From assembly GCA_017466455.1 (NCBI GenBank), contig JAFTUD010000032.1, positions 1-10,997 on the forward strand: DNA of 10,997 nucleotides. Direction: 5' to 3'. Positions 22-10,801 of the stretch are shown here, piece by piece. Source of the stretch: Clostridia bacterium (GTDB lineage Bacteria; Bacillota_A; Clostridia; Oscillospirales; CAG-272). The position numbers and the translations under genes were made by a program. The first letter of the stretch is position 1; the number at the start of each line of letters is the position of its first letter. Below the pieces are notes generated by a model, which worked only from the letters and a program-made list of their open reading frames with translations, was not told the DNA's origin and made no database searches.

Positions 22-177
22 TTTTGCTTTAGCAAAACTGTTCGCAAGAACAGGTAGGTTAGGTTCTTATATGTCCCGTTGGGACTCGATATGTTTCGCT
101 ACGCTCAACTCGATATGGACTCTGCGAGTCCTCGATATGCAGCTTCGTTGCGTTGGATAGCCCACCGAGGCTCCCCG
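22..177. repeat. CGATATG mini-hairpin array, copy 1
   Basis: This is a non-coding array of small stem-loops joined by the 7-mer CGATATG (87-93, 111-117, 133-139; degenerate TTATATG at 67-73). Hairpins seen: TTTTGC/GCAAAA (22-37), CTGTTC-GCAA-GAACAG with a GNRA loop (38-53), GTCCC/GGGAC (73-85), a weak two-part stem (93-109), GGACTC/GAGTCC (117-131) and GCAGC/GTTGC (139-151). It ends in a GC-rich module, GGATAGCCC then CGAGGCTCCCCG (155-176). Positions 69-163 match 711-805 at 94 of 95 bases. The array lies just beyond the terminator of the minus-strand PC4-like gene. I do not recognise a named repeat family. The repeat structure is certain; its function is not. Confidence 0.85.
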
Positions 178-181
178 CCAC

Positions 182-214
182 AAAAAAAGCAAGTCAAAAC
201 GACTTGCTTTTTTG
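182..214 (-). terminator. Intrinsic terminator of the PC4-like gene
   Basis: A perfect 13-bp stem (183-195 with 201-213, core AGCAAGTC/GACTTGCT) encloses the loop AAAAC. Its outer arms are A and T runs, so it reads as a rho-independent terminator in both directions. It starts 15 bases after the stop codon of the minus-strand gene at 229-450, which it most likely ends. Confidence 0.85.
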
Positions 215-228
215 TTTGTTAAATGTAA

Positions 229-450
229 TCAGATGTCCATCTCGTTGAGAAGAGCCTTAAGATTCTTAATTTCTTCCTCTGTAAGAGTGATGCCTTTTCC
301 GAGTTTTTCGTGACCTTCCTGCCAAACACGGATGTCATAGACAGGCTCTCTTTCGTTCCAGCTTACAAGATTAACTTCCTTAATCCAACCGTTGTTGCTG
401 TCGGAAACTGCGCCAAAGCTCTTAACGATGTCAAATTTGAATTCAGCCAT
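229..450 (-). CDS. PC4/YdbC-like ssDNA-binding protein
   Basis: This encodes a 73-residue protein resembling the bacterial YdbC branch of the PC4 (positive cofactor 4, p15) family, whose members bind single-stranded DNA or RNA as small dimers. The recognisable pattern is GW-KEVNLVSWN (about residues 22-32), then YDIR-W (38-43) and GKGITLT-EE near the C-terminus (52-61), as in YdbC-type proteins. I chose the ATG at 450 because AGGAGG lies 9 bases upstream; the frame runs open further to a GTG near 486, but that has no ribosome binding site. The gene stands alone, with its own promoter (514-542) and terminator (183-213). A role in transcription or DNA maintenance is inferred from the family only. 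Confidence 0.8.
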   Translation of the reverse strand: MAEFKFDIVKSFGAVSDSNNGWIKEVNLVSWNEREPVYDIRVWQEGHEKLGKGITLTEEEIKNLKALLNEMDI

Positions 451-513
451 TTGAACAAACCTCCTGTAAAATTCCGAAAAACTCACCCTATGGCAAATTC
501 TCCTATATGAGTA

Positions 514-542
514 ATTTTATCACAGTTTGTTCACAATTGCAA
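514..542 (-). promoter_or_regulatory. Promoter of the PC4-like gene
   Basis: On the minus strand, TTGCAA (537-542) and TAAAAT (514-519) are separated by exactly 17 bases. A TG one base before the -10 makes it an extended -10. Transcription would start near 507, giving a leader of about 57 bases. Almost pure A/T sequence lies directly upstream (541-600, one G in 60 bases) and could act as an UP element. Confidence 0.7.
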
Positions 543-649
543 TATATATTTTAAAATTTTTATAATATTTTATATATTATTTAATAAAAAGATATATATT
601 TTAGCAAAAAAAGATGAATTTTTCTTAATTTTCGCCATTTTCTTCCTCG
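543..649. other. A/T-rich intergenic stretch
   Basis: This lies between array copy 2 and the promoter of the PC4-like gene. It holds no plausible gene. Bases 541-600 contain a single G/C base. Apart from possible UP-element function for the minus-strand promoter I see no feature in it. Confidence 0.6.
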
Positions 650-820
650 TTTGCGCCCCGAGGAGCAATGCGCAAATGCGCAAGTGCGGAACGGTGCTAA
701 CGCAAGCTCGATATGTCCCGTTGGGACTCGATATGTTTCGCTACGCTCAACTCGATATGGACTCTGCGAGTCCTCGATATGCAACTTCGTTGCGTTGGAT
801 AGCCCGTCGAGGCTCTCGGG
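650..820. repeat. CGATATG mini-hairpin array, copy 2
   Basis: Four exact CGATATG linkers (709-715, 729-735, 753-759, 775-781) alternate with small hairpins: GTCCC/GGGAC (715-727), a weak two-part stem (735-751), GGACTC/GAGTCC (759-773) and GCAAC/GTTGC (781-793). The last is a perfect stem; copy 1 has a G-T pair at the same place. The GC-rich end module (GGATAGCCC then CGAGGCTC) covers 797-815, and the array stops directly at the stop codon of the EamA gene (821). At the other end a TTTGCGC/GCGCAAA stem (650-656 with 670-676) precedes the first linker. 711-805 is nearly identical to 69-163. Confidence 0.85.
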
Positions 821-2840: not shown

Positions 2841-3031
2841 GTCGGATTTCGCCAGCGGGGACTCCCTCAACTCGGGTCGATATGTCCTACGGACACGATA
2901 TGCTCCGTTCCGTCGCACGATATGTTGCTTGCGCAACGCGATATGGCTAACGCCGTGAAGAATACTGCTCGGGGAGAATGGAAACGCCCCGCACTAAACG
3001 AAGTCGGATATTGCCCGCGGGGGCTCCCCGC
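2841..3031. repeat. CGATATG mini-hairpin array, copy 3 (divergent)
   Basis: Four exact CGATATG linkers (2878-2884, 2896-2902, 2918-2924, 2939-2945) alternate with hairpins: GTCC/GGAC (2884-2894), a two-part stem TGC-CG/CG-GCA (2901-2917), GTTGC/GCAAC (2924-2937) and ATGGC/GCCGT (2943-2956). The hairpin sequences differ from copies 1 and 2, but order, size and linker are kept. The array sits between two direct copies of a 26-base element (2841-2866 and 3003-3028, 22 of 26 identical) beginning GTCGGAT and ending CTCCC. The second copy includes a 6-bp GCGGGG/CCCCGC stem (3017-3031) that runs into the stop codon of the small gene at 3031. Confidence 0.8.
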
Positions 3032-3207
3032 TAGTTTTGCTTTTGAACGGACTTGTATTCGTCGTAGAACTTGTAATAAGGGCAAGACTTGTTTTTGCGA
3101 GTGAGGTAATCAAGATATTCGTCCTCATCAAGGTCAATTACGCACACATAGTCGCCAATATCCTCATCAAAATCAAAATGCTCACAGCTTTCGCAAAGAT
3201 TAGACAT
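3031..3207 (-). CDS. Small four-cysteine protein (DUF6472-like)
   Basis: This encodes a 58-residue acidic protein with a CESC pair (C5, C8), C22 in DYVCVIDLDEDEY and C42 in SCPYYKFYDEYK. The CxxC...C...CPYY arrangement suggests a small metal-binding (zinc-ribbon-like) fold. It resembles the uncharacterised Clostridia family I know as DUF6472; this is from memory of the motif, not a search. I chose the ATG at 3207, which has AAAGGA six bases upstream, over an upstream start near 3237 that lies in the 3226-3250 hairpin. It follows cysS after 49 bases and is probably the last gene of the CPBP-cysS unit. The function is unknown. Confidence 0.75.
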   Translation of the reverse strand: MSNLCESCEHFDFDEDIGDYVCVIDLDEDEYLDYLTRKNKSCPYYKFYDEYKSVQKQN

Positions 3208-3225
3208 AGTGTTCCTTTCTAAAGT

Positions 3226-3250
3226 ATTGCTCGGCATTTAGCCGAGCAAT
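3226..3250 (-). other. Hairpin between cysS and the small protein gene
   Basis: A perfect 10-bp stem (ATTGCTCGGC/GCCGAGCAAT) with a five-base loop begins 6 bases after the cysS stop. On the minus strand it is followed by ACTTTAG, not a U tract, so full termination is unlikely. It may protect the 3' end of the cysS message, be a processing site, or reduce expression of the next gene. Confidence 0.6.
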
Positions 3251-7708: not shown

Positions 7709-8013
7709 ACAAATTTCTATTGATGCTTGGACTGTGTAAGAGGGCAGGCAAGGTGCAAATAGGCACACCGCAGGTTGTTGAGGCGGTACAAAAGAGGACT
7801 GCTAAGGCGGTTTTCTATGCCTGTGATGCCTCGGCTAACACAAGAAAAAGAATAACGGATAAATGCGCGTTTTACGGAGTAGAATGTATAGAGGTGGAGT
7901 ATAGCTCGCAGGAGCTTTCCCACGCACTCGGTAAAAGCGGAAGCGTGTGCGCAGTCGGCATAATGGATGAAGGCTTTCTTAAGCAGCTAATGGGTCTGTT
8001 AAACAAAAACTAA
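7705..8013 (+). CDS. ylxQ: YlxQ, L7Ae-family (L30e-fold) RNA-binding protein
   Basis: This encodes a 102-residue protein of the L7Ae/L30e/S12e/Gadd45 superfamily, whose members bind kink-turn RNA. Recognisable segments are [21 protein letters not shown] (about 7-27), [18 protein letters not shown] (40-57) and the C-terminal AVGIMDEGF. It starts with GTG at 7705, four bases before the end of ylxR, so GTGA contains both the start and the TGA stop; AAGGAG lies 8 bases upstream. Translational coupling with ylxR is likely. The exact RNA target of YlxQ is not established. Confidence 0.93.
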
Positions 8014-8032
8014 GAGAAACGAGGTAACGAAT

Positions 8033-10801
8033 ATGGCAGATACAAGAATAAAATCAGTCGCAAAGGACTTTGGAATGGATATAAAGGCGTTTAGCGAGCT
8101 TGCGTCAGAGCTGTTTCCAAGCGCAAAGCTCGGGGAGGATGTTGACCCCGCGCTTATGAACGCGCTTCTTGATAAGCTTACCGCATCGGTGAGCAGTGTT
8201 AGCCTTGATAAATACTTAGCTAATGAAACCGATATCCCCGCAGGAGAAAAGAAGGTGAGCAAGAAGGCTAAGGCAGAGGCGGAAGCTAAGGCTAAAGCGG
8301 AAGCAGAAGCAAAGGCTAAAGCAGAGGCGGAAGCTAAGGCTAAGGCAGAGGCAAAGGCTAAAGCAGAGGCAGAGGCTAAGGCTAAGGCAGAGGCAGAGGC
8401 TAAGGCTAAAGCGGAAGCAGAGGCTAAGGCTAAGGCAGAAGCTGAAGCAAAGGCTAAAGCGGAAGCTGAAGCAAAGGCTAAGGCTTCAGAGCAAAAGGGC
8501 AACGCACAGCAAAGAAACGACTTTTCCAAGGGCGAGCAAAGAGGCAACCAAAGGGGCGACTTCCAAAGAAACGATAAATTTGACAGAAATCAAAGACCCG
8601 AGAGGGATAATAAATTTGACCGTGACTCAAAATTTGACCGCGATAACAGATTCGACCGCGACGGTAAATTCGATCGCGATAGTAAATTCGACCGCGACGG
8701 CAAGGGTGATAAGTTCTCAAGGGATAATCAAAGGGGTCAGAACGGCGACTTTAATAAGAAGCGCGATGACCGTCAGAAGCAGGGTCAGGGCGAGAGCAAT
8801 CTCGTAGAGATTAGAAAGAAGACAGGCACGACAAGAGTTGTTGATACCCGTTCAAGCGCGAACTACGACCAATCCAAGTATGATGATAACAGAATAGATA
8901 ACTACGGCTCGTACGACAACTACGGCTCGGGCAAGCAAAAGCTCAAAAAGCAGAATAACCGCGCTCAGCAGGAGGGTGGCTTCTCTAAGAAGGATAAGGA
9001 GCGTCAGGCTCAGGAGAAGGCAAAGAGAGCAATATTTGAAAAGGCAAAGAATACTCAGCTTTCAATCACTGTCCCCGATGAAATCACCGTTGGTGAGCTT
9101 GCATCCCGTCTGAAGGTAACCGCAAGCGAGGTTATCAAGCGCCTTATGCTTATGGGCGTTATGGCGACAGTAAACCAAATAGTTGACTATGATACCGCAT
9201 ATCTTATCGCCGATGAGCTTGGCGCAAAGGTTACAAAGGAAGTGGTAGTAACCATCGAGGAAAAGCTCTTTGACGATACAGAGGACGATGCGTCAAATCT
9301 TGTGGAGCGTGCGCCCGTTGTATGCGTAATGGGACATGTTGACCACGGTAAGACATCAGTGCTTGACGCAATCAGAAACGCAAATGTAACCGCAGGCGAG
9401 GCAGGCGGAATTACTCAGCATATCGGTGCGTACAGTGTAAATATTAACGGAAAGCCAATCACATTCCTTGACACCCCCGGACACGAGGCGTTTACGGCTA
9501 TGCGTCTGCGCGGTGCGATGGCTACCGATATTGCAATTATCGTTGTCGCAGCAGATGACGGAATTATGCCTCAGACAGTAGAGGCTATCAATCACGCTAA
9601 GGCAGCAGGCGTTGATATCATCGTAGCAATCAATAAAATGGATAAGCCAACCGCAAATCCCGACGCGGTTAAGCAAACGCTAACTCAATACGACCTCGTT
9701 CCCGAGGAGTGGGGCGGTGATGTAATTTGCGTACCTGTATCCGCAAAAACAAGATTCGGTCTTGACGACCTTCTTGAAACAGTCCTTCTCGTTGCCGAGG
9801 TTAAGGAGCTAAAGGCTAACCCCAACCGCCGTGCAAAGGGTATTGTTATTGAGGCGAAGCTTGATAAGGGTCGCGGACCTGTTGCAACCGTTCTTGTTCA
9901 AAACGGAACACTTAAGAGTGGCGATGTCGTAATCGCGGGAACAAGCGTAGGACATGTAAGAGCTATGACCGACCATAACGGTAAGGTGGTTAAGGTAGCA
10001 GGACCGAGCGTGCCTGTTGAAATCATCGGTCTTGCCGAGGTTCCGCTTGCTGGTGATGAGTTTAACGCGGTTGAGGATGAGAGAATGGCAAGGGAGCTTG
10101 CCGAAAAGCGCCGTGCAAGGGCTAAGGAGGAGCAGTTCAAGGCTAATGCTAAGCTCAACCTTGATGATTTGTTCGCTCAGATTAACGAGGGCGCAAAGGA
10201 AATCAATGTTATCGTTAAAGCCGATGTTGGCGGAAGCGCAGAGGCAGTTAAGGCGTCACTTGTTAAGCTCTCAAATGCCGAGGTTAAGGTCAGCGTAATT
10301 CACACAGGTGTTGGCGGAATTACCGAAAGCGATGTTATGCTCGCTGCCGCATCAAACGCAGTTATCGTTGGCTTCAATGTCCGCCCCGATAAGAGCGCTA
10401 TTGACTCCGCGGCAAGACAAAATGTAGATATCAGAACACATAGAATTATTTACGAAATCATTGAGGAAATGGAAGCCGCAATGAAGGGAATGCTCGCTCC
10501 AACCTATAAAGAGGTTATAAACGGTCATGCCGAGGTAAGACAGACAATCAGAGTTCCAAATGTCGGCACAATCGCAGGATGCTACATTCAAGACGGAAAG
10601 GTTACCCGTCAATCTCAAATCCGTGTTCTCCGTGACGGCGTCGTAATATTTGAGGATAAGATTTCCTCACTTAAGCGCTTTAAGGACGACGCAAAGGAGG
10701 TTGCCGCAGGCTATGAGTGTGGTGTAGGACTTGAAAAGTTCAACGACATCAAGGAGGGCGACATCCTCGAGGCATTCGTTATGGAAGAGGTCGCAAGATA
10801 A
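8033..10801 (+). CDS. infB: Translation initiation factor IF-2
   Basis: This GTPase brings formyl-Met-tRNA to the 30S subunit and promotes 50S joining. The 922-residue product has a short N-terminal segment resembling an IF2_N fold (1-30), a lysine/alanine/glutamate repeat (77-151), a charged xKFDRD repeat region (about 181-231), a canonical IF2_N domain (about 351-402), the GTPase domain and domains II-IV. GTPase motifs are intact: GHVDHGKT (434-441), GGITQHIGA (458-466), DTPGH (480-484), NKMD (534-537) and SAK (570-572). Domain II begins near 600 and domain IV ends at the C-terminus. The ATG at 8033 has a modest GAGGT seven bases upstream. It is the last gene of the operon, followed by a strong terminator. 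Confidence 0.97.
8261..8485 (+). repeat. 24-base tandem repeat inside infB (KAKAEAEA units)
   Basis: Residues 77-151 of IF-2 are eight full 8-residue units KAKAEAEA, one shortened unit lacking EA (102-107) and a partial last unit. At the DNA level each unit is 24 bases and differs by silent changes (GCA/GCT/GCG, GAA/GAG), so the array is old enough to have diverged. A long open frame on the opposite strand here is a by-product of this composition. Confidence 0.9.
8573..8725 (+). repeat. 18-base repeats inside infB (xKFDRD units)
   Basis: Residues 193-222 are five consecutive six-residue units of the form x-(K/R)-FDRD, with related degenerate units on both sides (FDRN at 183-186, KFSRD at 227-231). 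The stretch is highly charged and probably disordered. It joins the KAKAEAEA repeat to the remainder of the N-terminal extension. Confidence 0.85.

Follow-up and report, generated by a model that had tools for sequence, protein, structure and literature searches.

REP and BIME sequences are dispersed intergenic palindromes arranged in mosaics, for which a partner protein (RAYT) is expected in trans, and the STRR of cyanobacteria are arrays of heptameric repeats. The 23S rRNA IVS lie within rRNA helices and are excised by RNase III; the account of those of Coxiella burnetii (PMC4990558) calls them 'selfish' and describes terminal inverted repeats, tandem heptamers upstream of S23p, and a role of the open reading frame (ORF) in mobility that was once proposed. 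The same account presents S23p as a family without known function and the Xanthomonas protein as a homopentamer of four-helix bundles. Tandem 7-mers in many intergenic copies have also been described in marine Beggiatoaceae (TAACTGA; PMC4679880), where a repeat-binding protein was proposed, and in other bacteria (PMC4692102).

The window, that is the whole 10,997-nt stretch of DNA analysed here, has the gene content of a Clostridia-type chromosome. Read by eye from its ORFs, it carries genes for a YdbC-like protein and an EamA-type transporter, dus, cysS and a CAAX protease gene, followed by rimP-nusA-ylxR-infB. The N-terminal part of infB (8240-8530) is a long low-complexity Lys/Ala/Glu repeat with a 12-nt period. 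A sequence-only reading had reported eleven exact copies of CGATATG and one degenerate copy in three clusters, and our recount confirmed this. The exact copies start on the + strand at 87, 111 and 133; at 709, 729, 753 and 775; and at 2878, 2896, 2918 and 2939, forming clusters of three, four and four with start-to-start spacings of 18-24 nt, and the degenerate copy, TTATATG, occupies 67-73. An extra exact CGATATG at 9419 on the - strand lies within infB and is unrelated to the arrays. With one mismatch allowed, the window holds 39 matches against 26.6 expected, a number reached in 3 of 200 shuffles; it is the recurrence of the arrays across genomes, not the counts within the window, that excludes chance.

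The repeating unit consists of a 7-nt linker, NCGATAT, and a small hairpin closed by a G-C pair (5' G, 3' C). We assign all three arrays to the - strand, on which the loops are of the GNA/GNNA type (the ATATCGA strand). Copy 1 (67-178) begins with the degenerate linker at 67-73 and contains hairpins at 73-85, 93-109, 117-131 and 139-151, TCGATAT linkers at 86-92, 110-116 and 132-138, and a terminal module (GTTGGATAGCCC..GGCTC) at 152-178. Copy 2 (695-820) carries the hairpin TGCTAACGCA at 695-704, linkers TCGATAT at 708-714, 728-734, 752-758 and 774-780, hairpins at 715-727, 735-751, 759-773 and 781-793, and a GGCTC module at 794-820, immediately followed by the EamA-type gene's stop codon (TTA, 821-823). 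The ydbC-like gene is enclosed by copies 1 and 2. In copy 3 (2877-2954), the first base of the linker is T, A, A and G in order (TCGATAT 2877-2883, ACGATAT 2895-2901, ACGATAT 2917-2923, GCGATAT 2938-2944), and the hairpins lie at 2884-2894, 2902-2916, 2924-2937 and 2945-2954; the second of these is weak, as had been remarked from the sequence before. Beyond copy 3, a GGCTC-type hairpin module on the - strand (3004-3030) adjoins the stop codon (CTA, 3031-3033) of a small gene (3031-3237), and an imperfect direct repeat resembling this module lies to the left of copy 3, at about 2841-2866. The GGCTC hairpin is a second repeat that flanks or ends the arrays at these four places (152-178, 794-820, ~2841-2866 and 3004-3030), twice beside a stop codon. 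Our array detector, which requires at least two units of a 7-nt linker recurring every 16-37 nt with palindromic stretches in between, accepts copies 2 and 3; copy 1, with its degenerate first linker, falls below the two-unit minimum, and all three are recognizable by eye.

Among 44 genomes tried (39 with a match), the closest relative of the window is G006, whose NusA is 84% identical and whose matches cover about four-fifths of the window at 70-81% identity. CGATATG is absent from G006 at both the EamA/ydbC and the dus/3031 intergenic regions. The former is rearranged, with the ydbC-like gene inverted relative to its neighbours (window 205-705 against the reverse complement of L332 at 7893-8240); at the latter, G006 (L332) has a GGCTC-kind module that adjoins the stop codon and no array. 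The comparison yielded no clean empty insertion site. The arrays that G006 does possess are near-identical to each other. Copies 1 and 2, which are 97% identical over 105 nt (69-173 and 711-815), differ from the common G006 array in all four hairpins, in support of the earlier suggestion that the hairpins diversify. Copy 3 and the common G006 array have the stem types TCC/GGA and TTGC/GCAA in common, and one G006 array (L349) contains the copy 2 hairpin CAACTTCGTTG. The G006 comparison thus indicates that array positions are lineage-specific and that hairpins turn over, with the linker held constant. Beside its CGATATG arrays, G006 also has a second dispersed hairpin-array family with the linker ATGAATT (L253, L335, L337, L351).

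A search of related genomes, which the sequence-only reading had called for, found the three-linker pattern in all 40 genomes chosen for having an array and the reversed pattern in none of them. The arrays recur in gut and rumen Clostridia MAGs, with 1 to 109 pattern matches per genome in these 40 (maximum in G007), where matches overlap and a four-linker array counts twice. Scanning one genome per species for three linkers gave at least 117 loci. Among the matches listed were 243 chains in genome and viral loci; the hairpin filter retained 81 of these, including 65 from the genome collection. The record titles of the retained loci are mostly those of gut or rumen Clostridia MAGs, and some others (e.g. 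L008, L049, L070) are coding or simple repeats. In the order containing G026, the pattern occurs in 9 of 297 genomes; three were known before, and in at least two (G041, G080) the matching sequences have no hairpins. In the genus of G006, the figure is 5 of 29, G006 included. The arrays are distributed patchily and have been amplified in single lineages. Four linkers are present in 48 of the 61 one-armed arrays from G006, G010 and G026 loci. In G026 (L265-L284), the linkers are separated by hairpin modules from a limited repertoire, whose order and number vary as though modules had been shuffled among copies. At four G010 loci (L292, L293, L301, L304), another repeat (near TGTCATCCTGAGCGACAGCGAAGGATCTGAAAA) directly precedes the CGATATG array.

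Upon examination of the hairpins, we found that their stems covary within a single genome. In an alignment of the 18 G010 copies that fit the start and end pattern (from 20 fetched loci), 97.8% of cells pair, and 8 pairs are changed on both sides against 2.6 in shuffles, with none of 500 shuffles as high. This is the covariation that had been proposed as a check, and it supports selection on structure. Unique segments between CGATAT linkers number 385, of which 317 pass the pairing filter. Read on the ATATCG strand, perfect hairpins have GNA in 59 of 118 triloops and GNNA in 51 of 112 tetraloops (110 of 230 together), and the opposite-strand versions of these loops do not occur. G.A mismatches outnumber T.C by 51 to 3 in the filtered set and by 47 to 10 in the unfiltered first set, and in arrays with other linkers, read in the matching sense, G..A loops make up 45 of 81 and T..C loops none. 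The one-sided loops and the G.A excess mark one strand as the folding strand. In the window, the same loop and mismatch evidence leads us to take the - strand as the folding one, and an earlier claim on copies 1 and 2 has to be divided accordingly: their single change within 69-163, a G/A difference in hairpin 4, does keep pairing on the + strand (G.T for A-T), but on the - strand, where folding is likely, it creates an A.C mismatch.

These structures bear on two other explanations. The arrays might be a neutral mutational product: short palindromes that template switching during replication keeps perfect around a sticky 7-mer, S23 genes being simply tolerated in the vicinity. The predominance of Watson-Crick pairs (1181 of 1265 inner stem pairs in hairpins passing the pairing filter) and the shuffled look of the G026 modules would suit such an origin; we nevertheless give it very little credence, as it predicts neither GNA/GNNA loops confined to one strand nor the within-genome match of linker to S23 clade and the moved array-plus-S23 units described below. 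Alternatively, the folding molecule could be RNA: S23 would bind the array in the leader of its own messenger and regulate translation, and dispersed arrays would bring further genes under its control. GNRA loops, G.A pairs and a one-strand excess of G.T over A.C, which is expected of RNA too, fit an RNA equally well; where an S23 gene has an array, the nearest one mostly ends within 300 bp upstream of the start codon (see below), and a translational role has been proposed for the TAACTGA heptamers (PMC4679880). The G.T excess is 20 to 6 (p 0.009) in the larger filtered set and 29 to 21, not significant, in the first unfiltered one. On the other side, GNYA loops (23) are nearly as frequent as GNRA loops (28) and G.T makes up 20 of 1265 inner pairs, both of which lean towards DNA over RNA. 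Moreover, array orientation relative to neighbouring genes is even, with counts of 39 and 38 for codirectional neighbours and 19 and 18 for oppositely oriented ones among 171 detected arrays (some redundant; 24 inside called ORFs, 33 without a neighbour), a test blunted by two-armed arrays, which are alike on both strands. On balance, we consider an RNA element unlikely.

Two of the ORFs that arrays closely flank encode S23/IVP proteins (PF05635, the 'four helix bundle' family). Of 22 array genomes, 21 contain PF05635 at E up to 0.001 and 20 score above the family cut-off, against 6 of 40 array-poor genomes of one order; the family also scores above the cut-off in 21 of 36 genomes of assorted, mostly other phyla. 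Because the sets differ in taxonomy and so many of the assorted genomes are positive, the presence of S23 alone is weak evidence, and position beside S23 genes is stronger evidence than mere presence. We fetched 90 of 101 S23 matches (91 rows, including one duplicate locus; the other 11 are mostly contig-end or low-scoring pieces). An array lies within 700 bp of 42 of these 90 distinct genes (43 rows), upstream in 42 of the 43 rows and on both sides in 13. The nearest array ends 8-300 bp upstream of the start codon in most of them and 470 bp upstream in L501. As controls, the detector found arrays at 0 of 19 UvrC loci, 1 of 25 Y1 loci and 0 of 30 in each of four shuffles. Two of the S23 hits (L445 and L457) have linkers unlike the others and are probably due to chance, and the counts leave aside arrays with 6- and 8-nt linkers, which are visible by eye and missed by the detector. 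The S23-upstream arrays have the same two-armed plan as dispersed arrays.

Further features of the S23 loci and proteins were noted. At L467, L476, L477, L462, L490 and L493, the S23 gene comes soon after apparent tRNA genes and terminators, and these six loci have 6- or 8-nt linkers (e.g. CACAGT/ACTGTG, CTTCAT/ATGAAG) or plain heptamers. In the two S23 proteins scanned, Pfam recognises no domain besides PF05635, and S23 is not known to contain a cutting domain. Among solved structures, sequence matching retrieved only 2rld, an entry of five chains, and a search with a single S23 member returned 3390 protein clusters. A GIY-YIG nuclease was tried as an alternative partner and rejected: by frame length, 19 of 30 fetched loci are UvrC, with arrays at none of them, and the other 11 have an array only at the G019 locus and at L559 (linker ACTTCAT), which amounts to no general association. 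The single-domain GIY-YIG gene of G019 (L312 1649-1957; L543) has a CGATATG array on either side.

The linkers beside S23 genes are TCGATAT or GCGATAT, GTTATAT, GTGATAT, GCTAAAT, GTGATGT or GTGATGC, GTGAAAT, and ATGAATT, with near variants. We grouped them into seven classes, which labelled 39 of the 91 rows, and left four short rows out of the tree. On the resulting tree of 87 S23 proteins, the 39 labelled rows require 8 linker changes, against at least 18 in 1000 free shuffles and at least 12 when labels are shuffled within genomes. A careful tree without near-identical partners (32 rows, 18 genomes) again requires 8, against at least 16 in free and at least 9 in within-genome shuffles. The CGATAT S23 genes form a clade that includes one unlabelled row (bootstrap 99), within which TCGATAT (5 rows) and GCGATAT (the unlabelled row and 5 others, of which two represent one locus) are sister subclades with bootstraps of 100 each. 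Linker classes C and F coincide exactly with clades, and D, E, B and Bt do not separate cleanly. One of the S23 genes of G006 (L472) bears the linker ATGAATT, as in the second array family of that genome. By sequence comparison, these patterns suggest that each S23 protein recognises its own linker and helps the element to spread. They also lend support to the earlier idea of the linker as a putative binding site, in that the constant linker matches the S23 protein beside full-length copies.

The window linkers are those of the one TCGATAT/GCGATAT clade, with ACGATAT twice in copy 3 as well; inspection of the window ORFs by eye revealed no S23 gene. Of the 21 array-rich genomes, 6 yielded an S23 gene of this clade (in one of the six, without an array), and G006, G010 and G026 did not; the three S23 genes of G006 all belong to other clades. 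Gaps in MAGs at repeats could explain this shortage.

The fit between linker and S23 clade also weighs on a model akin to REP/RAYT, in which the hairpins would be recognised by a Y1 (IS200-type) transposase and mobilised in single-stranded form. Strand-specific hairpins, dispersed copies and even orientation would all be expected of such an enzyme, and Y1 is found in 10 of 21 array-rich genomes against 9 of 40 array-poor ones. Yet Y1 (PF01797) was not found in the other 11 array-rich genomes, G006, G010, G026 and G037 among them (MAG gaps being possible), for which we rejected it as the partner, and the model offers no reason for linkers to track the S23 clade. We regard it as highly improbable.

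Comparisons among S23 loci show that the array and the S23 gene have moved or been copied as a unit. L423 and L454, in one genome, are 98% identical over 636 bp of array plus S23 and have unrelated flanks; L432 and L459, in two genomes, are 91% identical over 719 bp with different flanks. Two further pairs agree with moved units: L424/L428 (84% over 559 bp, each after a tRNA gene) and L455/L460 (89% over 603 bp, with one end at a contig end). By eye, we recognised no target duplication, such as would mark a MITE, at the edges of 18 G010 and 12 G006 copies, and no exact insertion junction was seen.

We therefore think it probable that the window arrays represent non-autonomous, dispersed members of a mobile repeat family linked to S23, whose spread would be promoted by S23 binding to the linker. 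The full-length form consists of (linker-hairpin)n followed by (hairpin-complementary linker)m, often two-armed, directly upstream of an S23/IVP gene and sometimes with a further array downstream of it. The S23 ring, of five subunits in the described relative, would bind several of the 7-nt linkers at once (TCGATAT for this clade), while the hairpins would fold away from it, with the DNA most likely in single-stranded form. In this manner S23 may help its own gene, as well as arrays that lack the gene, to be copied to intergenic positions, with cutting and joining presumably carried out by other enzymes. The plain tandem heptamers beside other S23 genes may be the same type of site without hairpins.

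Outside these Clostridia, at S23 genes of other phyla, we observed such tandem heptamers, and a hairpin array at 1 of 30, a doubtful case. With a threshold of at least 17 of 21 bases, a period of 7 occurs within 200 bp upstream of S23 in 13 of 28 genes from other phyla and 27 of 91 rows of the first set. In the first set, period-7 rows are almost all distinct from array rows (1 in both), and either feature is present in 69 of 91. Other periods from 4 to 13 reach at most 2 of 28 and 0 of 91, and period 14, a multiple of 7, gives 13 and 20. Controls gave 2 of 127 and 12 of 761 ORFs, the latter from loci picked by array pattern; an initial control (13 of 228 at lag 7) had taken in ORFs inside S23 loci.

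Of 23 plasmid S23 records matched, 20 were listed, and all 8 that were opened have period-7 heptamers; in at least four (L588, L589, L591, L593) the reverse complement of the heptamer lies downstream of the gene. The two phage records, retrieved with a TCGATAT-clade query (54% identical), both contain hairpin arrays, whose linkers are GTGAAAT and GTGATAT and not those of the query clade. Blind tests on viral contigs found a relative for 1 of 4 queries, and this contig, retrieved with a GTGAAAT-clade query, carries GTGAAAT/ATTTCAC arrays, the linker that its clade predicts (1 of 1). In the Bacteroidales genome G371, 136 sites match the heptamer that adjoins S23, and ten other genomes have none; the reversed-heptamer control gave 13 matches in G370, which stem from a different heptamer. 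The heptamer of G367 is scarce, with 6 matches in that genome, all but one at the S23 locus, and 5 in G370; its reversed control is uninformative, as AGTTGA reads alike both ways. Genome-wide dispersal of heptamers held in one of the two genomes tried and is thus not general. On the Anabaena cylindrica plasmid pANACY.01 (L590), an S23 gene accompanied by tandem heptamers is located between cas1 and cas2, and in Planktothrix (L591) one sits between drmD and pglX, positions that suggest insertion of S23 into defence gene clusters. A figure legend in PMC10910872 lists '23S rRNA IVP' among genes associated with CRISPR adaptation modules, a listing that the plasmid S23 between cas1 and cas2 may explain.

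A broader proposal, to which we give about even chances, is that S23/IVP proteins are specific recognisers of their own 7-nt repeat and form bacteria-wide minimal mobile elements with plain or hairpin-interrupted heptamer arrays, gene-less arrays included. If true, it would account for the 23S rRNA IVS, the unexplained heptameric repeats of several phyla and the window arrays, and would make Avd a derived member. The clade-specific link to a 7-mer would give these very common proteins a testable function, the recognition of a repeat by its sequence, and S23 would be a candidate for the heptamer-binding protein that PMC4679880 (2015) says should be sought. The term S23 is absent from the main texts of PMC4679880 and PMC4692102, and in the literature covered (most subscription journals and all preprints lying outside it) we found no paper linking S23 to hairpin arrays or to heptamers in general.

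The sequence-only reading could assign the arrays to no known family (REP, BIME, MITE, CRISPR). Rfam gave no match in the window, and 11 array loci gave seven matches, none overlapping an array, so a known structured RNA was rejected. As for CRISPR, the constant part is 7 nt long, the intervals are palindromic, and no cas gene was seen by eye among the window ORFs. REP/BIME mosaics are built on one conserved palindrome, whereas these arrays combine a constant linker with free hairpins, and the Y1 transposase of REP/RAYT was not found in 11 of the 21 array-rich genomes, G006 included. The TAACTGA and other heptamers resemble the S23 heptamers in being intergenic, many-copy tandem 7-mers; unlike the present arrays, they are described in PMC4679880 and PMC4692102 as far as these texts go without interposed hairpins. 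Avd of diversity-generating retroelements resembles PF05635 in sequence and structure, according to PMC10053308, and differs in that it works with a reverse transcriptase and template repeats. The 23S rRNA IVS have the S23p family in common with our arrays. The window copies, by contrast, lie between protein genes, none of them in a 23S rRNA helix, and the arrays as a group are intergenic, many per genome in some hosts and often gene-less, with hairpins between their 7-mers.
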